Shown: piece by piece, positions 3,912-50,110 of the stretch
How positions within the stretch are numbered: the stretch's first letter is position 1
Layout: each line of letters starts with the position of its first letter
Assembly: GCA_937924505.1 (NCBI GenBank)
Contig: CALDSR010000063.1
Coordinates: 1 to 51,331 of the forward strand
Source of the DNA: an uncultured Granulosicoccus sp.
Lineage (GTDB): Bacteria > Pseudomonadota > Gammaproteobacteria > Granulosicoccales > Granulosicoccaceae
Reading direction: 5' to 3'
Length of the DNA stretch: 51,331 nt
Notes under the pieces: generated by a model
Databases searched by the model: none
Told to the model about the DNA's origin: nothing
Seen by the model: only the letters and a program-made list of their open reading frames with translations
Program-made: the position numbers and the translations under genes

Positions 3912-5423
3912 TCAAGCACGCCTGTTCATCAGAATATCCAGATCCTCTGTCGACAGCTCTTCTTCAGGTTCACGCTTTGGTTCAACTAGCAGCATGCCGA
4001 TGATGATGATTACCAGCGCGACCAGGGCAGTAGGTGTAAGAGTTTCCCGCAGAAGAAAAACGCTGATGGTGATGCCGCCAATGGTTTGAATATAGGCGGT
4101 CTGGCTCGCGAAGACAGGGCCTGCGCTGAGTGTCAGCTTAACAAAAACCAACATTGAAACTAACGCGATTATTCCCCAGATGATCACACCTGCGGCGGCA
4201 TCGGGTGGGATGGTGTTCAGGGGTATGAATTCATCTTGGATCCAGGCAATCGGTAACATGATTATTATGCCAGCGACAGAGGCCAGGCCCAGGGTCGTTA
4301 GCGGCGAGGTGTTCACGTTGCGCGATGAGTCAACCAGAATATCTATAGCGGCGTAACCAAGCGGGACTCCGAGAGCAAGGATGGCCCAGAGCACATTTGT
4401 TGATCCTTCTCCGGAGGAGCGTTGTGCGTAAACCGCGAGAACTACCCCGACGATACCCAATAGAACGCCAGATGCTTTCTTTACTGTGACGTTCTCAAGT
4501 CGCATTATCGCTGAGTATGCGTACACCATAAGAACTTCCGTGACCATGATGATGATGATCACAGAGGCTTCAATATGTTCTGAGGCTTTGAGTAGTAAAA
4601 GATCGCCAAGTATGACGGTGAAGAATCCCCACAGGAGGAAGTATACGATGACGTAGAAGCTCGGTTTGGGTAAGTCTTTTTTATATACCGATCTCGGTAT
4701 GGTTAATATCACTATCACCACGTTCAGCCAGATCGCCATGCCGATGGAGCTGAGATTGAACTGACTCAACCATTTGGCAGCAGGTGCATCGAGGCCAAAA
4801 AACAAGCCTGCCAGTAGTAGAAGTCCAAAGCCGCGTATGGTTTGAGCTTGGTGTTTGAGCCGGCGTTCTCGATCATAGATTCTCTGTGCCATGTCAGAAA
4901 ACACCGAGGCGAAGCTTGCCATCGTGCTCGTGCCGCTGGCAATGGCATTCAATCGCAACTGTTTAGGATTATAAATGGATTGTTCGAGCAATTTACTGGC
5001 ACGCGTCAGTCGTTCGATCTGATGCACCATTTCAATTTCTCTGTCACGATTTTTCTTGATCAGCAAGCCGGCCTTGATCCTCGCTTTCAGTACGGGGCGA
5101 GGAAAGTTCTTGGGAAGAAAATCCTCAGCACCCATCTTTATGGCTTTGATGACCTGGCTTCTATCGTTTTCGTGCGCAGATATGACAATAACTGGAATGT
5201 GTTTGAGAGCAGCTTGTCGGCGTAACCAATCCAGAACCGAGAAGCCGTCTGTATCGGGCATTTCGATATCGAGTAAAAGTATATCGACCGGGTTATGTTG
5301 TAAATGCGACATGGCATCTGCCGCATTGGTAGCAGTTTCGACGTCGTATCCGAGCCCGGATACAGCAAGTTCAATTTTTTTAAGTTGCGTTGCCTGGTCG
5401 TCGACGATCAGAATTCTGCTCAT
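3912..5423 (-). CDS. Receiver domain-EamA/DMT transporter fusion, copy 1
   Basis: 503 aa. Residues 1-125 are a complete CheY-like receiver: acidic pair D8-D9, phospho-acceptor D52 (LLLDIEMP), S82 and K105. Residues 126-195 are a charged helical linker resembling HAMP-like signalling helices (FASVFSDMAQRIYDRERRL). From about 197 to 485 there are about ten hydrophobic helices with the two-repeat layout and the late motif GPVFASQTAYIQ of EamA/DMT transporters. An acidic tail follows. The inferred role is an inner-membrane transporter, or transporter-like sensor, whose state is set by phosphorylation of its cytoplasmic receiver. The gene is divergent from the haem-protein/kinase genes and is a paralogue of the gene at 9756-11288. 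No DNA-binding output is present. I know of no characterised protein with this fusion; the substrate is unknown. Confidence 0.85.
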   Translation of the reverse strand: MSRILIVDDQATQLKKIELAVSGLGYDVETATNAADAMSHLQHNPVDILLLDIEMPDTDGFSVLDWLRRQAALKHIPVIVISAHENDRSQVIKAIKMGAEDFLPKNFPRPVLKARIKAGLLIKKNRDREIEMVHQIERLTRASKLLEQSIYNPKQLRLNAIASGTSTMASFASVFSDMAQRIYDRERRLKHQAQTIRGFGLLLLAGLFFGLDAPAAKWLSQFNLSSIGMAIWLNVVIVILTIPRSVYKKDLPKPSFYVIVYFLLWGFFTVILGDLLLLKASEHIEASVIIIIMVTEVLMVYAYSAIMRLENVTVKKASGVLLGIVGVVLAVYAQRSSGEGSTNVLWAILALGVPLGYAAIDILVDSSRNVNTSPLTTLGLASVAGIIIMLPIAWIQDEFIPLNTIPPDAAAGVIIWGIIALVSMLVFVKLTLSAGPVFASQTAYIQTIGGITISVFLLRETLTPTALVALVIIIIGMLLVEPKREPEEELSTEDLDILMNRRA

Positions 5424-5619
5424 TTTTACGGTCTATGCACGCTTGTTGGTACTTTAAACTGTTTACGTCGGAGGAGAATATCGCGATTGCGTCCTACGTT
5501 ATACACGACAGCATGTGTGCGAGTATTTCTGAGCAAATTTTAGAAGGATTCGTATATCAATACGTCCTCTTTTATATAAGAATTCTCTATACTGATCAGA
5601 GGTTTGAGGGAGTCGTATT
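5424..5619. promoter_or_regulatory. Divergent promoter region of the phosphorelay locus
   Basis: A 196-bp AT-rich gap between the divergent starts of the receiver-EamA gene and the haem-protein gene must drive both transcripts. TATACT at 5588-5593 is a candidate -10 box for the plus strand, without a convincing -35. GAGGGAG at 5606-5612 is a good ribosome site 7 nt before the ATG at 5620. An imperfect dyad (GGA..CGTAT/ATACGTCC) lies around 5546-5567. Confidence 0.45.
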
Positions 5620-6465
5620 ATGTATAACGGGAGCTATTTTGCGCCTATTCCTTTGTATAGGGCCAATCGATTTGCACCGATTATAATCAGTGGTGAAAAA
5701 ACCAATTGGCGAATGAGAACACTCGCGACTATTTTGACGTGGTCTCTGCTCACCACAATTTTTCCAGCTTTTACAAAAGTAGCTCGTGCTGACGAAAGTA
5801 GTCTGAGTACCGCTTTGATGCTTGCAGATATTCTAAGAGCTGCGAGAAGAGAAATCGCTAGTCAGCAGCCGACGATAAATGATCAATCGCTTGGTGACAA
5901 GGGGCTAAGCGGCGATGTCGTGCAAAAAAATATTATCGCTCGTCTCGAGGAGTTGCGGGAGCCAGGCGTTCTCACTCAGCCTGCAGATGAGCGAGAGGCA
6001 AAGCTAATCAAAGCACAGCTTGATTCGATGCGCGAAATCCTTGACGAGAATCAATCGCTGATAAACAACAAAGGCATAGGATTCAAAGGTTTTGTACCGG
6101 CTGTTTTTGCACAGTTATCCAACGAGCGCTTTGGTGAGAAGGTGGGTGATATTGCTGAGATAAAAGTCACGGCACCGTTGGAATTTGTGCGTAATCGTAA
6201 ATCGCGACCGGATAGATGGGAGCTTGGTGTTCTCGAAAATCGTTTCAAGTCAGACGAGTGGGTTCGTGGAGAACTGTATTCTGAAGATGCCGAAGGCAAA
6301 CGTGGCTCCGCTTTTCGGGTCATGGTGCCGGAGTACTATGGTGAGGTTTGTCTTGCTTGTCACGGAAGCCCCAAAGGCGAAGTGGACGTTACCGGTTATC
6401 CCAAGGAAGGTGGCCGCGTGGGGGATCTCGGTGGCGCTATCAGTATAACAATTTACGATAAGTGA
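5620..6465 (+). CDS. DUF3365 (Tll0287-like) periplasmic c-type haem protein
   Basis: 281 aa from the ATG at 5620. The C-terminal half carries CLACHGSPKG with the haem-c motif C244-x-x-C247-H248, followed by GGAISI, the hallmark of DUF3365 proteins that bind haem in a PAS-like fold. A good signal peptide runs from Met32 and ends VARADES. GAGGGAG 7 nt before ATG 5620 supports the longer form, while signal-peptide geometry favours Met32 (5713), so the start is uncertain. The mature protein should be periplasmic. Lying 37 bp before a hybrid kinase that has a periplasmic segment, it is plausibly a redox, gas or small-ligand sensor feeding that kinase. This is inference; an electron-transfer role is the alternative. 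Confidence 0.8.
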   Translation: MYNGSYFAPIPLYRANRFAPIIISGEKTNWRMRTLATILTWSLLTTIFPAFTKVARADESSLSTALMLADILRAARREIASQQPTINDQSLGDKGLSGDVVQKNIIARLEELREPGVLTQPADEREAKLIKAQLDSMREILDENQSLINNKGIGFKGFVPAVFAQLSNERFGEKVGDIAEIKVTAPLEFVRNRKSRPDRWELGVLENRFKSDEWVRGELYSEDAEGKRGSAFRVMVPEYYGEVCLACHGSPKGEVDVTGYPKEGGRVGDLGGAISITIYDK

Positions 6466-6502
6466 TCGCGAAAACAAGTATTGGGCTCAGTAGATTGCTT
6501 GT

Positions 6503-9500
6503 ATGAAGAATCTCTCGATTGTTTCGCGCTTGATGTTGCTGTGCACATGTCTACTTGCCGTACTGATAGGTTCTAGTGTCTATCTGAACAGAGCCTTGTC
6601 ACATAGTACAGATACACTTCTTGAAGAGACCAGGCTCGTTGGTGTGATGACTAACGCCAATGCTGCGGCTAATGCCTTTGGTGATCTGAAGTACTGGTTG
6701 ACTGATCTGGCTGCAAGTCTGCTCGTGCGTTCTGAGCTGGAAGCGGAATCTGCACGCGAGCGACTGGAAGCAGAATTGGAACTTCTGGCGCCCGACAAAC
6801 CGGAATTGGTCAATGCCATCAAAGCCGATGTTGACAAAATGGTTGAGCAATCGCTCAATGCAGTAGACGCTTATACAGATTCACAGCGTGTGATGGGAAA
6901 CACCTTGATGGCAGCTTCACGTGGCTACATCATGAAAGTTGATGAACATTTTGCCGAATTGGTACGTGATCTTGATTCCCAAGTACAAGCGCACAGCACA
7001 AGTGCGCTTGAAGCGACTGGCAGGACAGAGCGAAATTCTTTCTGGCTGACGGCGACCGCAAGCCTTCTGGGTCTGTTGCTTACCGCATGGGTTGTTCAAT
7101 CTATCCGCTCACCGTTGAGAAGTCTCGTATCGGCGATGGGTGATATCACCAGTGGAAATCTGGATACAGAGATACCAGAACCAGGGCATGACGAGATTGG
7201 GGCGATGTCTCGCACATTGAGTTTGTTTCGCGATAGTACGCGTGAACGTAACCGCTTGCAGCAAGAACGGGACAATACAGCCAGTGCGCTTCAGGAAACG
7301 CAATCTCAGTTGAACGCTGCGCTGGATAGTATGTCGGACGGCTTCTGCCTGTATGACAACAATGATCGTCTGTTGTTATCCAATGACCGTTTTCGAAGCG
7401 GGTTGCATCCAGGGATGGATGAACTATTTACTGAGGGTGTCACGTTTGAAGCGATTGTTCGGGAATCCGTACGTCGTGGTTTGATACCGGAGGCAAATGA
7501 CGACCCTGAAGCGTGGGTGTTGGAGAGAGTCAAGCGCCATAAAAATCCGGGTTCTGCGTACGAGCAAGAAAGACTGGATGGCCAATGGCTGCGCATAGAT
7601 GAACGACGAACCGCCAGTGGTGGAACGGTATCAATCTATTCGGATATCTCGGAGCTGAAACACCGCCAGCACCTCCTGGCAGAGGCAGCCGAGGCGAAGG
7701 ATGCTGTGTTGAACGAGTTGAATGTCGTGCTCGAAAATATCGATTACGGCGTCTTGTTCATGGACAGTGAGTTTGATATACATATAACCAATAACGCTTA
7801 CAGAAAGCTTTGGAATATTCCAGAGTCATTCTACAAAGACAAGCCCACACTATTTGACGATATGGCTTATACCCGCGAGCACGGAGTCTATTCAGTACCC
7901 GATGATGAGTGGGATGATTTTGTCACAGCAAGGATCGCAGCCATTCGTTCAAATACCGGTGAGCGTCAGGAATTGTCACTCGCGGACGGCAGAACATTGC
8001 AGCATCAATGTATTTCTCTGCCAACCGGTGGGTATATGTTGACGTACTTTGATATCACTGAACTTAAGGAGGCCGAGGCAACCATGCGTTCGGCACGTGA
8101 TATCGCCGAACAGGCAACCTCAGCGAAAAGTACGTTTCTCGCGACCATGAGCCATGAGATCAGAACGCCGATGAATGGCATCATTGGTATGAGTAATCTT
8201 ATGTTGAACACTGATCTTGATAAAGAACAGGAGGATTTCACTCGTACCATTGTTGATAGTGCTGAATCGCTGTTGACAGTAATCAATGATGTGCTTGATT
8301 TTTCCAAGATAGAGGCGGGGAAATTTGATCTGGATCCGCAAGTCACCGACTTGCGTGAGTGCATCGAAGGCGCATTGGATCTTGTGACAACCAGCGTAGA
8401 CAAAAAAAATCTCAACCTTGCTTATTTACTTGAGCGGGATACGCCAGAAGGTGTTATCGCCGATGCTGGCCGGTTACGGCAGGTATTGCTCAATCTCCTG
8501 AACAATGCGATTAAATTTACCAGTAAGGGTGAGATAGTCTTACGTGTGGCACTTGCATCTCCAGATGATGAAACCGTTCTGACGCACAATGCCAAAGACG
8601 TTTCCGAATCACACACAGTTATACACTTCTCGGTGTCTGATACGGGAATTGGTATTGCTAAAGACAAAATCGGTATGTTGTTCAATTCCTTTTCGCAAGT
8701 GGATGCATCAACGACCCGCATCTATGGGGGTACTGGTCTCGGCTTGGCGATATCCAAAAATCTTGTTGAGATGATGGGTGGACGCATATGGGTCGAAAGC
8801 GAACTTGGAAAAGGCACAACCTTTCATTTCACCACGGTTTTCCCCACAGCCTCGATTGACAGACGGGTTGCATTGCATGAAATAAAACCGGATTTGGCCA
8901 ACAAGAAGCTCTTGATCGTCGATGACAATTTGACGAATCGGAAAATATTGTCAATTCAGGCCGAGGAATGGGCCATGTCTAGCGAGCAAACAGAGTTTCC
9001 CCTTGAGGCGTTGGGCTGGATTCGCGAGGGGCAACACTATGATATTGCCATTCTTGATATGAGTATGCCTGAAATGAACGGAATCGAGTTGGCTCGAAAA
9101 ATTCGCCAATACCGATCATCACAGGAGTTGCCGCTTATATTGCTGAGTTCCCTGGCGACGTTGTCCGATGTGCCCAAGAGTGAGCTTGAAGAGGCTGAAT
9201 TTTCTGCCAAGTTGGCGAAGCCAATAAAGCCTTCGGCCTTGCTCGATATCATGATGGATACGTTTTCGGATCAAGCAAGTACGTTCAAGCGGCGTGATAA
9301 AAACAAGAATCAAGAGTTTGATAAAGAGTTGGCGATAAAAATGCCGCTGCATATCTTACTGGTCGATGACAACAAGACCAATCAGAAACTCGCATCATTG
9401 GTGCTGGGTCGCTTGGGCTATAAACCCGATATCGCCTCAAATGGCTCTGAGGCGGTCAGTAAACAGCTCGACTCCAACTATGATGTGATCCTGATGGATA

Positions 9501-9724
9501 TCGAAATGCCTGAAATGGATGGGGTTGATGCGACAAAGGCGATTCGCGCTGCGGAAAGCGGTAACGCCAAACCGGTGTATATAGTTGCGACGACGGCTAA
9601 CGCAATGCAAGGTGACCGAGAACGTTATCTCGCCGCAGGAATGGATGGCTATGTGAGCAAGCCCATTCGCATTAGCGAACTTGTGAACGCACTTGAAGTC
9701 GCTTACGAGGTACGCAATGTTTGA
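6503..9724 (+). CDS. Hybrid sensor histidine kinase with HAMP, two PAS, HisKA, HATPase and two receivers
   Basis: 1073 aa. TM1 is about residues 8-28, a helical periplasmic part 30-178, TM2 179-200 and HAMP 200-253. Two PAS domains span about 270-385 and 410-525. HisKA carries the phospho-acceptor His551 ([11 protein letters not shown]). HATPase_c shows the N box (NLLNNAIKF), G1 (DTGIGI) and G2 ([10 protein letters not shown]). Two receivers follow with acceptors Asp852 ([11 protein letters not shown]) and Asp999 ([11 protein letters not shown]); both keep the acidic pair and the Lys, so both look active. There is no HPt domain in the protein; a separate HPt gene lies at 11294-11647. Placed between the haem protein and the second receiver-EamA gene, it is the probable entry point of a phosphorelay to the two receiver-transporters. 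Confidence 0.93.
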
Positions 9725-9755
9725 AAATGAGTTAGATATGAGTTGTCAGCGGTAA

Positions 9756-11288
9756 ATGCCAAATTCTACAAAAGAGCGAATTCTGATTATTGATGATCAG
9801 AAGGTATTCCGGAAAAAACTTGAATTGGCCGTAACCCATCTGGGCTATGAAGCCAGCTCAGCTGAGAGTGGTCAGCTGGGGCTGAACAGGCTTCGCAAAG
9901 AAAATTTCGATGTTCTGTTACTGGACATCATGATGCCCGGTATGGATGGATTCGAAGTCATGCAATTCATGAAGGAGGAGGCGAGTTTACGGGATATTCC
10001 CATAATCGTTATCTCGGCGCTTGATGGTGAAATGGATGCAGTGGTTCGAGCGATTGAATTCGGTGCGCAGGATTTTCTTTCCAAGGATTTTGATCCGGTT
10101 CTACTGGAAGCTCGTCTCAGCAGCTCCTTGGAAAAAAAGCGTAATCGCGATCGTGAATTGGAACACCTGCAGCAGGTTGAACGTTTGACCAAAGCGGCTG
10201 CTGTGCTCGAAAATGGTGTGGTTGATCCGAAGAGGTTGCACATCGATGACGTTGCCAGTAGAACGGATGCGCTCGGTCAGCTGGCTCGTGTTTTTGTCAA
10301 TATGGCCGGCCAGATATTTGAACGTGAGAAGCGATTACGGCAGCAAGTACGAACCTTGAAAAGCTCCGGAGTGCTACTCGCTGTCGGTGTGATTTCTGGA
10401 CTCGGAGTTGTATTGTCGAGAATTGCCGCTGAAGCAGCTGCTCATCCGTTTGGCATTGCGCTGTGGGCGAATATTATCGTCGCGGTTTTATGTATTCCTC
10501 ATGCTGCTTATCGTGGGAAGCTGCCTAAACTGAACCGCTCATTGATCATGGTGTTTGTACTTTGGGCGTTCCTGTCGACTGTTATCGCTGAATCTGTGGT
10601 TTTTCTTGTCGCTCAACAGTTACCGGCTTCAATCATAGCCTTGATATTGTCGACAGAAGGTTTGATGGTTTTCGCATTTGCATCGAGTATCGGTATCGAA
10701 CAGGCCAATCTCAGGCGCTTGGTCGGTTTTTTTGTTGGCTTGACGGGAATTGCTTTGGTCATTTATGCCACTAGTGATTCATCATCGATCAAAAATGTAT
10801 GGATATGGACGTTGCTTGCCCTGTTCGCACCATTTGGTTATGCGCTACGCACACTCTTGATTACTGTGAAATTACCAAGTGATATAGATATGATCGCGGC
10901 GACGGGTTGCTGCGCTGTCGCTGCGGTCACTTTATTGATACCGTTGGTTATTGGATTAAATGATTTTGTGCCGCTATCCTTGAATAAGGACACGGGTAAT
11001 ATCTCGCTGGTGCTGGCGATTATTCTGTTTGGCATCGTCTCCGCGGTCGGTGTATCACTGCGAGTGTCGCTTATTCGCTCAGCCGGTGCCGTGTTCGCCA
11101 GTCAATCAAGCTTTGTCGTGACATTTGCCGGTATTGTCTGGAGCATTTTATTGTTGGGTGAATCATTACCGCTGCTTGCCTGGGCAGCGTTGATACTACT
11201 GGTGATTGGTTTGATGCTTGTAGGACCCAAGGAAGAAGCTGAAGAAAGAGACCCTATCTTGACGAGAACCGTTGATATTGAAGTGTAA
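9756..11288 (+). CDS. Receiver domain-EamA/DMT transporter fusion, copy 2
   Basis: 510 aa with the same plan as the gene at 3912-5423. The receiver is residues 1-130: acidic pair D13-D14, acceptor D57 in LLLDIMMPGMDG, S88 and K110. The linker at about 130-200 (LGQLARVFVNMAGQIFEREKRL) resembles HAMP-like helices joining receivers to outputs. About ten membrane helices from 205 to 490 have the EamA repeat layout, including GAVFASQSSF late in the second repeat. The tail is acidic. It starts 31 bp after the hybrid kinase stop, so co-transcription is likely. The receiver and linker resemble the first copy more than the membrane part does, which would fit paralogues with different transported substrates. 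Direct control of transport by Asp phosphorylation is inferred, not shown. Confidence 0.87.
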   Translation: MPNSTKERILIIDDQKVFRKKLELAVTHLGYEASSAESGQLGLNRLRKENFDVLLLDIMMPGMDGFEVMQFMKEEASLRDIPIIVISALDGEMDAVVRAIEFGAQDFLSKDFDPVLLEARLSSSLEKKRNRDRELEHLQQVERLTKAAAVLENGVVDPKRLHIDDVASRTDALGQLARVFVNMAGQIFEREKRLRQQVRTLKSSGVLLAVGVISGLGVVLSRIAAEAAAHPFGIALWANIIVAVLCIPHAAYRGKLPKLNRSLIMVFVLWAFLSTVIAESVVFLVAQQLPASIIALILSTEGLMVFAFASSIGIEQANLRRLVGFFVGLTGIALVIYATSDSSSIKNVWIWTLLALFAPFGYALRTLLITVKLPSDIDMIAATGCCAVAAVTLLIPLVIGLNDFVPLSLNKDTGNISLVLAIILFGIVSAVGVSLRVSLIRSAGAVFASQSSFVVTFAGIVWSILLLGESLPLLAWAALILLVIGLMLVGPKEEAEERDPILTRTVDIEV

Positions 11289-11293
11289 GCAGT

Positions 11294-11647
11294 TTATTGA
11301 TTGCTATCGATATAGTGTTGCAATTCGGTATGCGCAGCGGAAAATTGATTGGATATACCTTCAACCTGTGCCGCTGCATTATCTGGCCAGGTGTTTTTGC
11401 ATTGTGATTCCAGGCTTGCATTCATTTCCGAGAGCTCTTTTGCGCCGAAATCCTGAGCACTGGATTTCATTGAATGCGCACCTCGCCTGAGAACGTCGAG
11501 GTCTTTGTCTGCAAGCGATGCTTTCATTGCCGCGACGATTTCAGTACCTTCTTCAAGGAAGGTACTGATCAGTTCATGCAAGGTTTCCTTGTCTCCACCG
11601 ATGAGCTCGGATAATTGGTCTAATAGTCGGTGATCTATAGTGGTCAT
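11294..11647 (-). CDS. Single-domain HPt phosphotransfer protein
   Basis: 117 aa, all alpha-helical in appearance, with the histidine phosphotransfer motif AHSMKSSAQDFGA, phospho-acceptor His58. Its length is right for a stand-alone HPt four-helix bundle, and no other domain is fused. It ends 5 bp from the stop of the receiver-EamA gene on the opposite strand. Because the hybrid kinase at 6503-9724 lacks an HPt, this is the obvious shuttle between that kinase's receivers and the receiver domains of the two transporter fusions. Upstream on the same strand is an unrelated ABC ATPase ending 131 bp away, so the gene probably has its own promoter in that gap. Confidence 0.88.
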   Translation of the reverse strand: MTTIDHRLLDQLSELIGGDKETLHELISTFLEEGTEIVAAMKASLADKDLDVLRRGAHSMKSSAQDFGAKELSEMNASLESQCKNTWPDNAAAQVEGISNQFSAAHTELQHYIDSNQ

Positions 11648-11778: not shown

Positions 11779-12846
11779 CTACCGACTTTCAACTTCATCA
11801 AATTCCCGGTCAAAAATAACCAGGTGATCTAACTGTAAACGCAGGCCAAATTCCTCACCAACATGATGATTGTGATGTGAAGGCGCAAGACACAGTAGTC
11901 GTGTATTACCAGGCATTCGCAAGGTATACAAATGATCGGCGCCGCGGAAGTCTCGTGCAATGACGGTCGCCTTGTTAGGGCTGGCATCATCGTGGATGAT
12001 GTCATCAGGACGGACCAGCAGTTCGATCAGCGTACCCGGTGGTACTGACTCGGACAACTCTCCATGGATGATCCCAAGCTCGGTCTGAATGATATTGTTT
12101 TCAAGTGTATTGCCACACAAGAAAACACCCTCACCGATAAAGTCAGCAACAAACCGATCAGCCGGGGTGTGATACAGATTGTAGGCATTGTCCCACTGAC
12201 GCAGCTGTCCCTCTGACATGACGCCGATATGGTCAGCGATGGCAAAGGCCTCGAATTGATCATGAGTCACGAGTATCGCCGTGATGCTGTCGCGCTTCAG
12301 TATCTCGCGAACCTCATGGGCGAGTTGAACACGACGTTCGGTGTCCTGGCTACTGAAAGGCTCATCAAGCAGTAGCACCGGCGGGCGTGGTGCCATCGCG
12401 CGAATCAGGGCCACCCGTTGTTGCTGGCCACCTGAGAGCTGATGCGGGTAACTGTCACCGAAGCGCTGCATGGCAACCAACTCGAGGAGTTCATCGACTC
12501 GTGCTTCCACCTCTCGACGAGCAAAGCCGCGCATACCGAAGGCCACGTTTTTTCTGACCGTCATATGCGGGAACAGCGCGAGGTCTTGAAACACCATGCC
12601 AATACGGCGCTCTTCGGGACTGGCCTGCGCGTCGGCCGTTGCGACTGTCTGGTCAGCAATGGTTATTTCACCGGCCGATGGATTCTGAAACCCACCAATG
12701 GCGCGAAGCAGGGTAGTCTTGCCACAGCCGCTGGGACCAAGCAGGCAGCCAATGTCGCCAGGCTTGAGCGCAAATGAGACATCGCTGATGATCGGGTGAC
12801 CATTGATTTCGACGGACACCTCATTAAGTTCGAGCTGATTTAGCAT
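11779..12846 (-). CDS. ABC transporter ATP-binding protein, Fe(III)/FbpC-like
   Basis: 355 aa. It has Walker A GPSGCGKT (37-44), Q-loop Gln87, signature LSGGQQQR (137-144), Walker B PVLLLDEP (156-163) and switch His195 (VTHDQ). A C-terminal TOBE-like regulatory domain follows from about 240 (VRPDDI ... [11 protein letters not shown]). The family drives importers for iron, sulfate, polyamines or sugars; the TOBE part and GEGVFLCG resemble FbpC iron(III) importers. The D-loop reads SSQD in place of the usual SNLD. No permease or binding protein is adjacent, so it is an orphan subunit here. It is divergent from glnE with an 81-bp gap. Confidence 0.8.
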
Positions 12847-49162: not shown

Positions 49163-50110
49163 ATGACTAACATTGAATCTTCGGCCCCACCCACAGACAA
49201 GATTCTTACCGGTGTCGCGCTGATGCTTGGATTTTGCCTGACTGCCCCGTTGCTGGACGTGGCGGCCAAGCTGGCGTCTTCCAGTGTACCGGTTGGGCAG
49301 ATTACCGCGGCGCGCTTTATCATTCAGTGTGCGTTGATGGCTCCATTTATTGGGGCCATGCGGCTATCCATGCACGTCGCACGTGAGCAATGGTTGCCGG
49401 TGATTTTTCGCGCGTTACTTTTGCTTTTTGCAACCTTTTGTTTCATCACTGCGATCCGCGTGATGCCACTTGCCGATGCACTGGCGATTGTGTTCGTGGC
49501 ACCGTTTATTGTGTTGTTATTCGGTAAATTTTACCTCGGCGAAGACGTTGGTCCTCGCCGTATTGGGGCCTGCCTTGTAGGATTTTTCGGCGTTTTGTTC
49601 GTGATCCAACCCAGTTTCGCAGCGTTCGGTGCAGTGGCGTTAATCCCGCTTGGTACAGCAATCGCTTTCGCTTTGTACATTCTTGTGACGCGGGGGCTTT
49701 CACGCCGGATGCATCCTGTGGTGCTGCAATTTCATACCGGCCTGATCGCCAGTTTGTTTTGCATACCCGTACTGCTTCTGGCCCAAGGCTCCGGCTCTGA
49801 ATTACTTGATCCGGTTTGGCCACAGCGAATAGCCTGGCTGTGGCTCTTCGGCGCTGGATTCTTCGCGACACTGAGTCATATGATGATGACATACGCACTG
49901 TCACTAGCGCCCTCGGCCACGCTGGCCCCGCTGCAGTATTTTGAGTTACCGGTGGCGACCTTGTTCGGATACCTGGTTTTTCACGATTTCCCTAACACCC
50001 TGAGCCTGATCGGTATTGCCATTATTATCGGTGCTGGGTTGTATATGATCCACCGAGAGAGAATTACCGCCGGACGGCTGATCACTGAGCGCGTGGCTCC
50101 ACCGATCTGA
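49163..50110 (+). CDS. EamA/DMT-family transporter
   Basis: 315 aa with about ten helices in two EamA repeats: FCLTAPLLDVAAKLAS at the N-terminus, AIRVMPLADALAIVFVAPF, GEDVGPRRIGACLVGFFGVL and ALSLAPSATLAPLQYFELP in the second half. It is related to drug/metabolite exporters of the RhaT/YdcZ-like DMT group. Unlike the two receiver fusions at 3.9-11.3 kb it has no extra domain. The substrate is unknown; the dioxygenase and isochorismatase-like genes downstream might hint at an aromatic compound, but this is weak. Confidence 0.9.
   Translation: MTNIESSAPPTDKILTGVALMLGFCLTAPLLDVAAKLASSSVPVGQITAARFIIQCALMAPFIGAMRLSMHVAREQWLPVIFRALLLLFATFCFITAIRVMPLADALAIVFVAPFIVLLFGKFYLGEDVGPRRIGACLVGFFGVLFVIQPSFAAFGAVALIPLGTAIAFALYILVTRGLSRRMHPVVLQFHTGLIASLFCIPVLLLAQGSGSELLDPVWPQRIAWLWLFGAGFFATLSHMMMTYALSLAPSATLAPLQYFELPVATLFGYLVFHDFPNTLSLIGIAIIIGAGLYMIHRERITAGRLITERVAPPI

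Follow-up and report, generated by a model that had tools for sequence, protein, structure and literature searches.

A stretch of 51,331 nucleotides from an uncultured Granulosicoccus sp. (assembly GCA_937924505.1, contig CALDSR010000063.1; hereafter the window) encodes two proteins in which an intact receiver domain is fused to a complete ten-helix EamA carrier of the drug/metabolite transporter (DMT) superfamily. Beside them lie the genes of a hybrid histidine kinase, a stand-alone histidine phosphotransfer (HPt) protein and a haem-c protein of the DUF3365 family. On balance, we favour the view that these genes specify a multistep phosphorelay in which a membrane transporter serves as the terminal response regulator and phosphorylation gates transport. 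The familiar outputs of response regulators are DNA binding, enzymatic activity and contacts between proteins; a solute carrier built onto a receiver would represent a new class of phosphorelay output.

The receiver-EamA fusions

A first-pass annotation, made from the DNA letters, had placed five genes between positions 3912 and 11647, all of which were recovered there as single open frames with domains assigned by Pfam. Two of them had been described as paralogous fusions, each with an intact receiver, a linker and a full transporter, and this description holds. Fusion 1 (positions 3912-5423, minus strand, 503 aa) comprises a receiver with the acceptor Asp52, a HAMP-like linker of two helices and a ten-helix EamA/DMT transporter. 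Fusion 2 (9756-11288, plus strand, 510 aa) has the same architecture, with Asp57 and Lys110 in the receiver and HAMP-like linker helices at residues 114-152 and 172-227 that lead into transmembrane helix 1 (TM1). Pfam identified Response_reg in both proteins (E 1.2e-26 and 5.2e-26) and two EamA stretches per fusion, above the cut-off (E 8.8e-23 and 1.5e-15). Structure prediction, proposed in the annotation as a check, yielded models with pLDDT values of 88.0 for fusion 1 and 90.3 for fusion 2, in both of which the complete ten-helix DMT fold is preceded by a helix-connector-helix linker whose helix continues into TM1. The receivers possess the acid pair, the acceptor Asp, the Ser/Thr and the Lys of response regulators, with EamA as the output domain.

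The two fusions are 36% identical over 491 residues, a region that spans the receiver-transporter junction. Both domains are present in 52 of the 74 homologues of fusion 1 listed at E 1e-10 or better, the window's own counted, and in 114 of the best-listed 120 homologues of fusion 2 (best 120 of 594 above threshold). Asp52 of fusion 1 is invariant in 53 aligned sequences. In 100 aligned fusions, the acceptor Asp57, Lys110 and Ser/Thr87 are kept without exception, Asp13 is kept in 99 and Asp14 in 98. Conservation extends to the transporter, where Glu315 and Gly324 are invariant and Phe447, Ser449, Gln450 and Glu469 are each present in 97-99 of the 100. A frameshift, against which the annotation had weighed its own fusions, or an assembly error that joined two genes can be rejected with near certainty, as two paralogues that align across the junction and many two-domain homologues exclude it; no point in its support was found.

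Searches with named-family models matched the fusions to no named EamA subfamily, the closest models naming the receiver only, and a PDB sequence search with a profile of the linker and transporter gave no match at E 0.1. Among the listed matches, the closest receivers outside the fusion family are joined to a class III cyclase or to a GNAT domain. A tree was computed from 63 fusions chosen from those at hand, with L144 and the broken copies left out. The window's two copies fall into separate, well-supported groups of 10 and 12 rows within a group of 27 rows (99/97), and by this tree they are products of an old duplication.

The linker had been termed HAMP-like. Both models show its two-helix form, and two HisKA-receiver proteins with a homologous linker match Pfam HAMP at 2.4e-7 and 2.8e-6, but the fusions score low: HAMP was matched by 4 of 9 fusion linkers with E values of up to 5, the best being 7.5e-4, and the linker of fusion 2 reaches 14.8 bits against a cut-off of 25. 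Gammaproteobacterial HisKA-receiver-HAMP proteins with a linker of the fusion type and no transporter are encoded at L141:7052-8110 and L142:6255-7817.

The kinase and the HPt protein

For the hybrid kinase, with its pair of intact receivers, and for the stand-alone HPt, the annotation was borne out in both domains and residues. The membrane kinase (6503-9724, plus strand, 1073 aa) carries, according to Pfam, HAMP, two PAS_7 domains, HisKA (His551), HATPase_c and two Response_reg domains (Asp852 and Asp999); a transporter domain is not among them. The HPt protein (11294-11647, minus strand, 117 aa; Pfam HPt, E 8.3e-13) is encoded convergently with fusion 2 and has His58 and a Ser at H+4. His551, Asp852, Asp999, His58, Asp57 and Asp52 all stand at the positions named in the annotation, and the His-Asp-His-Asp set, from the kinase His through receiver Asp and HPt His to the terminal receiver Asp, is intact.

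The closest NCBIfam model of the kinase is TorS (TIGR02956), an equivalog model with a cut-off of 676.5 bits, of which the kinase reaches 455. The closest named model of the HPt protein is LuxU (NF041948), likewise an equivalog, with 37.3 bits against a cut-off of 140. Residue H+4 is other than Gly in all 23 HPts from the window and related loci (22 Ser, 1 Ala); a highly conserved, surface-exposed Gly at H+4 of HPts is the subject of PMC6341664, as stated in the portion of that paper available to us.

Gene neighbourhoods

Loci outside the window were found through the fusion or its linker alone and not through the partner genes. They came from named genomes (L001-L008), whole-genome searches and Mesorhizobium plasmids; in the named-genome search, the listed matches of 72 loci besides L001-L008 end by residue 298. 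With these loci the neighbour comparison suggested by the annotation was carried out. A related hybrid kinase is adjacent to the fusion in 23 of 27 outside loci and a stand-alone HPt is found in 22, counts on which a chance neighbourhood was rejected. The 27 loci are partly dependent, as L143 and L144 are near-identical and genomes G003, G1325, G1351 and G1360 yield two or three each; L141 and L142, with the linker but without EamA, are excluded from them.

In the first outside set, comprising 17 loci, the kinase is adjacent in all 17 and the stand-alone HPt is present in 16. The sole locus without an HPt is L135, where a transposase-like frame breaks up the locus and the kinase is spread over two overlapping frames. 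Other broken copies are a third, split fusion at L007:17261-18369 and a truncated fusion in L166. Where HPt and fusion genes are co-directional, the gap between them is -32 to +17 nt, with start codons assumed, such that the genes abut or overlap; these values derive from 13 of the 16 HPt-bearing loci of the first set, with L003, L007 and L144 left out. In Gemmobacter straminiformis, one frame of 1353 aa without an internal stop (L003:9968-14029) reads receiver-EamA-PAS-PAS-HisKA-HATPase-receiver-receiver and is followed by a separate HPt gene. A single protein thus joins all components but the HPt.

Six genomes of one gammaproteobacterial order provide ten loci, and in six of these loci kinase, HPt and fusion occur together. 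L157 and L158 show the exact gene order of the window (DUF3365, kinase, fusion 2, convergent HPt), and L159, L160 and L161 contain the window's genes in rearranged order; in L164, a protein weakly related to SBP_bac_3 (26.1 bits, cut-off 26.4) replaces DUF3365. The distances among kinase, HPt and fusion are correlated across 16 loci (r 0.57-0.69; 1 in 10,001 by permutation), the window being represented by fusion 2 only and L135, L144 and second copies being left out.

Several carriers and other potential outputs

In the annotation, the fusions flank the kinase locus as a pair. Loci with more than one fusion do recur, namely L007, with two intact fusions and a broken one, and L136 and L159, with two each; equal base counts suggest two further cases (contigs of 106315 and 4578 bases). 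Such two-fusion loci are one arrangement among several. In the tree, L007 and L136 have second copies that make up a long-branched group of their own. This group lies apart from the window's fusion 1, which suggests that the multi-fusion arrangement originated repeatedly.

The assignment of fusion 1 to the relay locus has to be qualified, as genes of the fusion 1 type can lie apart from kinase and HPt (L162, L163). Such an unlinked gene adjoins a TRAP carrier and a carbon-nitrogen hydrolase in L162 and choline/betaine-type ABC genes in L163 (L163:9358-13885). ABC genes of this type are also located near the complete locus L160 (L160:12666-15020), and these neighbours are a hint at the substrate class only. 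A receiver-GNAT acetyltransferase gene, whose receiver domain closely resembles the fusion receivers, lies beside the relay kinase at L134:14430-15383. Genes encoding proteins of about 600 aa with a match to the LuxR-type (GerE) helix-turn-helix flank the fusion at L005:4959-6770, where the match is weak, and at L139:431-2278; in that subgroup they are possible transcriptional partners.

The haem protein and other candidate sensors

The DUF3365 gene (5620-6465, plus strand, 281 aa) encodes a Tll0287-like periplasmic protein (Pfam PF11845, E 5.8e-18, 66.2 bits against 24.1) with the haem motif CLACH, the two Cys of which are the only Cys residues of the protein. About 31 residues of the frame precede the Met that opens a signal-peptide-like stretch, and the true start is probably near 5713. 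CxxCH is present in all 120 listed homologues (best 120 of 1,839), and in 79 of them, as in the window protein, a third Cys is absent past residue 35. A PDB search with the protein returned two matches, at 0.047 and 0.057, which were taken as chance. Because there is no third Cys, a Cys/His ligation of the Tll0287 type is unlikely in the window protein, judged by the available portion of a 2026 preprint (PMC12889525), and the haem pocket may therefore be open. The same portion describes a signalling-type member that binds NO stably and a stand-alone member that is more redox-like. The stand-alone form of the window protein points to a redox role, and it may act as a redox partner instead of sensing; NO or another ligand may also be involved.

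The inclusion of the haem-c protein in the system stands for the window's relatives, in which its gene keeps the same place (5 of 10 loci of the gammaproteobacterial order); elsewhere, a gene for a solute-binding protein often takes its place. When fusions on contigs of at least 5 kb were compared with DUF3365 contigs, 23 of 96 shared an exact base count (22 distinct values), against 0 (nine), 1 (two) or 2 (one) matches in twelve offset controls; the longest contigs and the best 120 of 1,839 DUF3365 matches were used. The pairing was borne out by four contigs examined later (30101, 17212, 23455 and 44729 bases), which hold both genes.

In 11 of the 17 loci of the first outside set, the kinase gene has a neighbour that encodes a solute-binding protein. 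The encoded proteins belong to family 3 in L001 (three), L004, L134 and L139, to DctP in L137 and L138, and to a weakly assigned group in L002, L007, L135, L136 and L140. The L140 protein matches the ectoine-binding EhuB at 4.5e-6, below the cut-off, PDB entry 2q88 at 0.0045 and SBP_bac_3 at 0.13, and the candidates of L002, L007, L135 and L136 gave no Pfam match. Among the six loci without such a gene, the kinase has GAF domains in L006 and L143 and PAS domains in L003, and in L144 it is annotated as a GAF protein; the remaining two are L005, whose contig ends at the kinase, and L008, whose kinase lay outside the domain scan. From this pattern we infer a variable sensor, namely the DUF3365 haem-c protein in the window's relatives and, in many other loci, a solute-binding protein. 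TorS, LuxQ and LytS are each acted on by periplasmic binding proteins, as reported in the part of PMC6321045 at hand.

Distribution and further genes of the window

The distribution of the fusions is patchy, sparse overall and denser in a few groups. A profile of the linker matched 1 of 385 alphaproteobacteria (the seed itself), 4 of 369 gammaproteobacteria (the seed and three proteins without EamA) and 7 of 295 members of one family, the seed among them. Further samples gave 1 of 31 (the seed) and 4 of 247 (seed included; L133 is not a fusion), and the richest order searched, which is gammaproteobacterial, had matches in 6 of 48 genomes; three small order-level samples of one, three and two genomes yielded none. 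Loci with the fusion were seen in alphaproteobacteria, one Pseudomonas and one gammaproteobacterial order. The annotation's concern about rarity and neighbours has a divided answer: the fusions are scarce by genome, but most of the loci examined have a kinase and an HPt beside them.

A mobile or viral origin was considered and not adopted. All listed matches at the 33 loci of a viral-contig scan end by query residue 162 and so cover receiver or linker only, and a plasmid DNA search produced 31 records, of which the 20 listed match over 1-2% of the query. A protein search located the fusion on three Mesorhizobium plasmids, two regions of which were examined.

In the window, the HPt gene is adjoined by a gene (11779-12846) for an ABC ATPase that resembles PotA and PhnT2 and contains TOBE_2; it scores below the cut-offs of the named models. 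The open reading frames on either side of it encode the HPt and GlnE, hence no permease gene is directly adjacent. In searches of 143 and 80 gammaproteobacterial genomes, the second covering matches at E 1e-230 or better, the best near-full-length match to GlnE had 48% identity. An ordinary EamA transporter of 315 aa without a receiver is encoded at 49163-50110. Scans of the window for promoters (8 sites, 12.0 in shuffles) and terminators (10, against 7.4 in shuffles, sd 3.0) were not used.

The proposed relay and its alternatives

In the mechanism considered here, a periplasmic protein, either the haem-c DUF3365 protein or a solute-binding protein, would act as a sensor on the membrane-bound hybrid kinase. 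Phosphate would pass from His551 to Asp852 and/or Asp999, from there to His58 of the HPt and finally to the receivers of fusion 2 (at Asp57) and fusion 1 (at Asp52). Each receiver sits on the HAMP-like two-helix linker, the second helix of which is predicted to lead into TM1 of the DMT carrier. Phosphorylation would alter the packing of the linker or the dimer state, upon which the carrier would open, close or assemble without new transcription. The broader proposition is a family of relays in which reversible phosphorylation of an Asp in the built-in receiver switches a DMT carrier without transcription, the periplasmic sensors being interchangeable and one relay serving two or more carriers, unlinked ones included; this seems to us evenly poised.

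Several observations weigh against this mechanism. The linker is also found in HisKA-receiver proteins that lack EamA, and in the fusions themselves HAMP is only weakly matched. The correlation of distances, calculated without control for species descent, lends weak support. Window-type HPts look like a distinct subclass, but this contrast is taken from the description in the available portion of PMC6341664 and not from a control set of our own. The receiver-GNAT gene of L134 may be a second output, and the relay may have others. Adjacent genes for binding proteins and kinases are not always functionally linked (PMC11113362, in the portion available). Moreover, 4 of the 10 loci of the gammaproteobacterial order (L162, L163, L165 and L166) are without kinase or HPt in the stretch examined. 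These four loci would suit fusions that are orphans, close to kinase and HPt by chance, with other kinases, or none, phosphorylating them. This is very improbable in view of the kinase and HPt counts among the 27 loci, the nearly overlapping HPt and fusion genes at the 13 loci measured and the single-protein form; furthermore, the genomes of L163 and L165 carry complete loci elsewhere (L161 in the former, L160 and L164 in the latter).

Somewhat less remote, yet unlikely, is a transport-dead membrane domain that serves as an anchor or docking platform, which would make the membrane receiver a phosphate sink or a protein binder. The receiver-only naming by the closest sequence models is in keeping with this, as is a fusion without known substrate or transport, but the full ten-helix DMT fold and the conserved transporter residues would be needless for an anchor, and some fusion genes adjoin transport genes (L162, L163). 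The most serious competitor, although itself doubtful, makes the carrier the input: passage or occupancy of the DMT substrate would alter the uptake or loss of phosphate by the receiver, which would report transport or drain phosphate, the real output being another regulator. An input role would be in keeping with the known reversibility of HPt phosphotransfer, with the receiver-GNAT gene next to the L134 kinase and with the LuxR-type genes on the flanks of the fusion in L005 and L139. The transporter domain on the kinase CbrA has, in addition, been discussed as a link between transport and signalling (PMC8871633, available portion). Arguing against the carrier as input, the transporter of the fusions sits on the receiver rather than on the kinase, and no recurrent DNA-binding receiver protein was seen beside the loci among the genes compared, the neighbours being partly annotated. 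The output role of the carrier is favoured because the receiver on which it sits has a full catalytic set and because one relay can be shared by several carriers (L007, L136, L159), a pattern more in line with outputs.

Comparison with known systems and significance

Several known systems resemble the proposed relay in part. LuxPQ-LuxU-LuxO of Vibrio likewise combines a periplasmic binding protein, a hybrid kinase, a stand-alone HPt and a response regulator (available portions of PMC6321045 and PMC13220807). The output of LuxO is transcription, whereas the regulator of the window is a carrier, and the window HPt, at 37 bits, is far from the LuxU cut-off. The TorT-TorS-TorR system, too, has a hybrid kinase under the influence of a periplasmic binding protein (PMC6321045, in part). 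The window kinase differs from TorS by its score, well short of that model's cut-off, and by an HPt encoded in a separate gene. TorS carries its own HPt, and TorR binds DNA. CbrA and other SLC5-type kinases unite a transporter and a two-component domain in one protein (PMC8871633, in part). In CbrA, SLC5 is fused to the kinase, on the input side, whereas in the window EamA/DMT is fused to the receiver, on the output side; the window kinase has no Pfam transporter domain and is thus not of the SLC5 type. With the EamA/DMT superfamily the fusions have in common two EamA stretches and the ten-helix fold, to which they add an N-terminal receiver and a two-helix linker before TM1. The outputs of receiver-class III cyclase and receiver-GNAT proteins are soluble enzymes, in contrast to the membrane carrier of the fusions. 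The window haem protein shares the Pfam match and CxxCH with the sCache_heme (DUF3365/Tll0287) group and is stand-alone, whereas the NO-binding example is fused to HAMP (PMC12889525, in part).

Listings from open-licence full text, searched for EamA, DMT or transporter together with receiver, response regulator or phosphorelay, showed no description of a receiver-EamA fusion or of such a system, in agreement with the annotation's statement that none of this form was known. In one of the papers listed, the two terms stand in separate rows of a table.

With the single-chain form of Gemmobacter, phosphotransfer and gating can both be tested on a single protein. If gating is true, a carrier of the superfamily that contains SLC35 would be settable through phosphate or beryllofluoride on one Asp. 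Bacteria would then possess a means of switching a specific carrier reversibly and without transcription, by which a sensed signal could switch transport directly rather than via gene expression.

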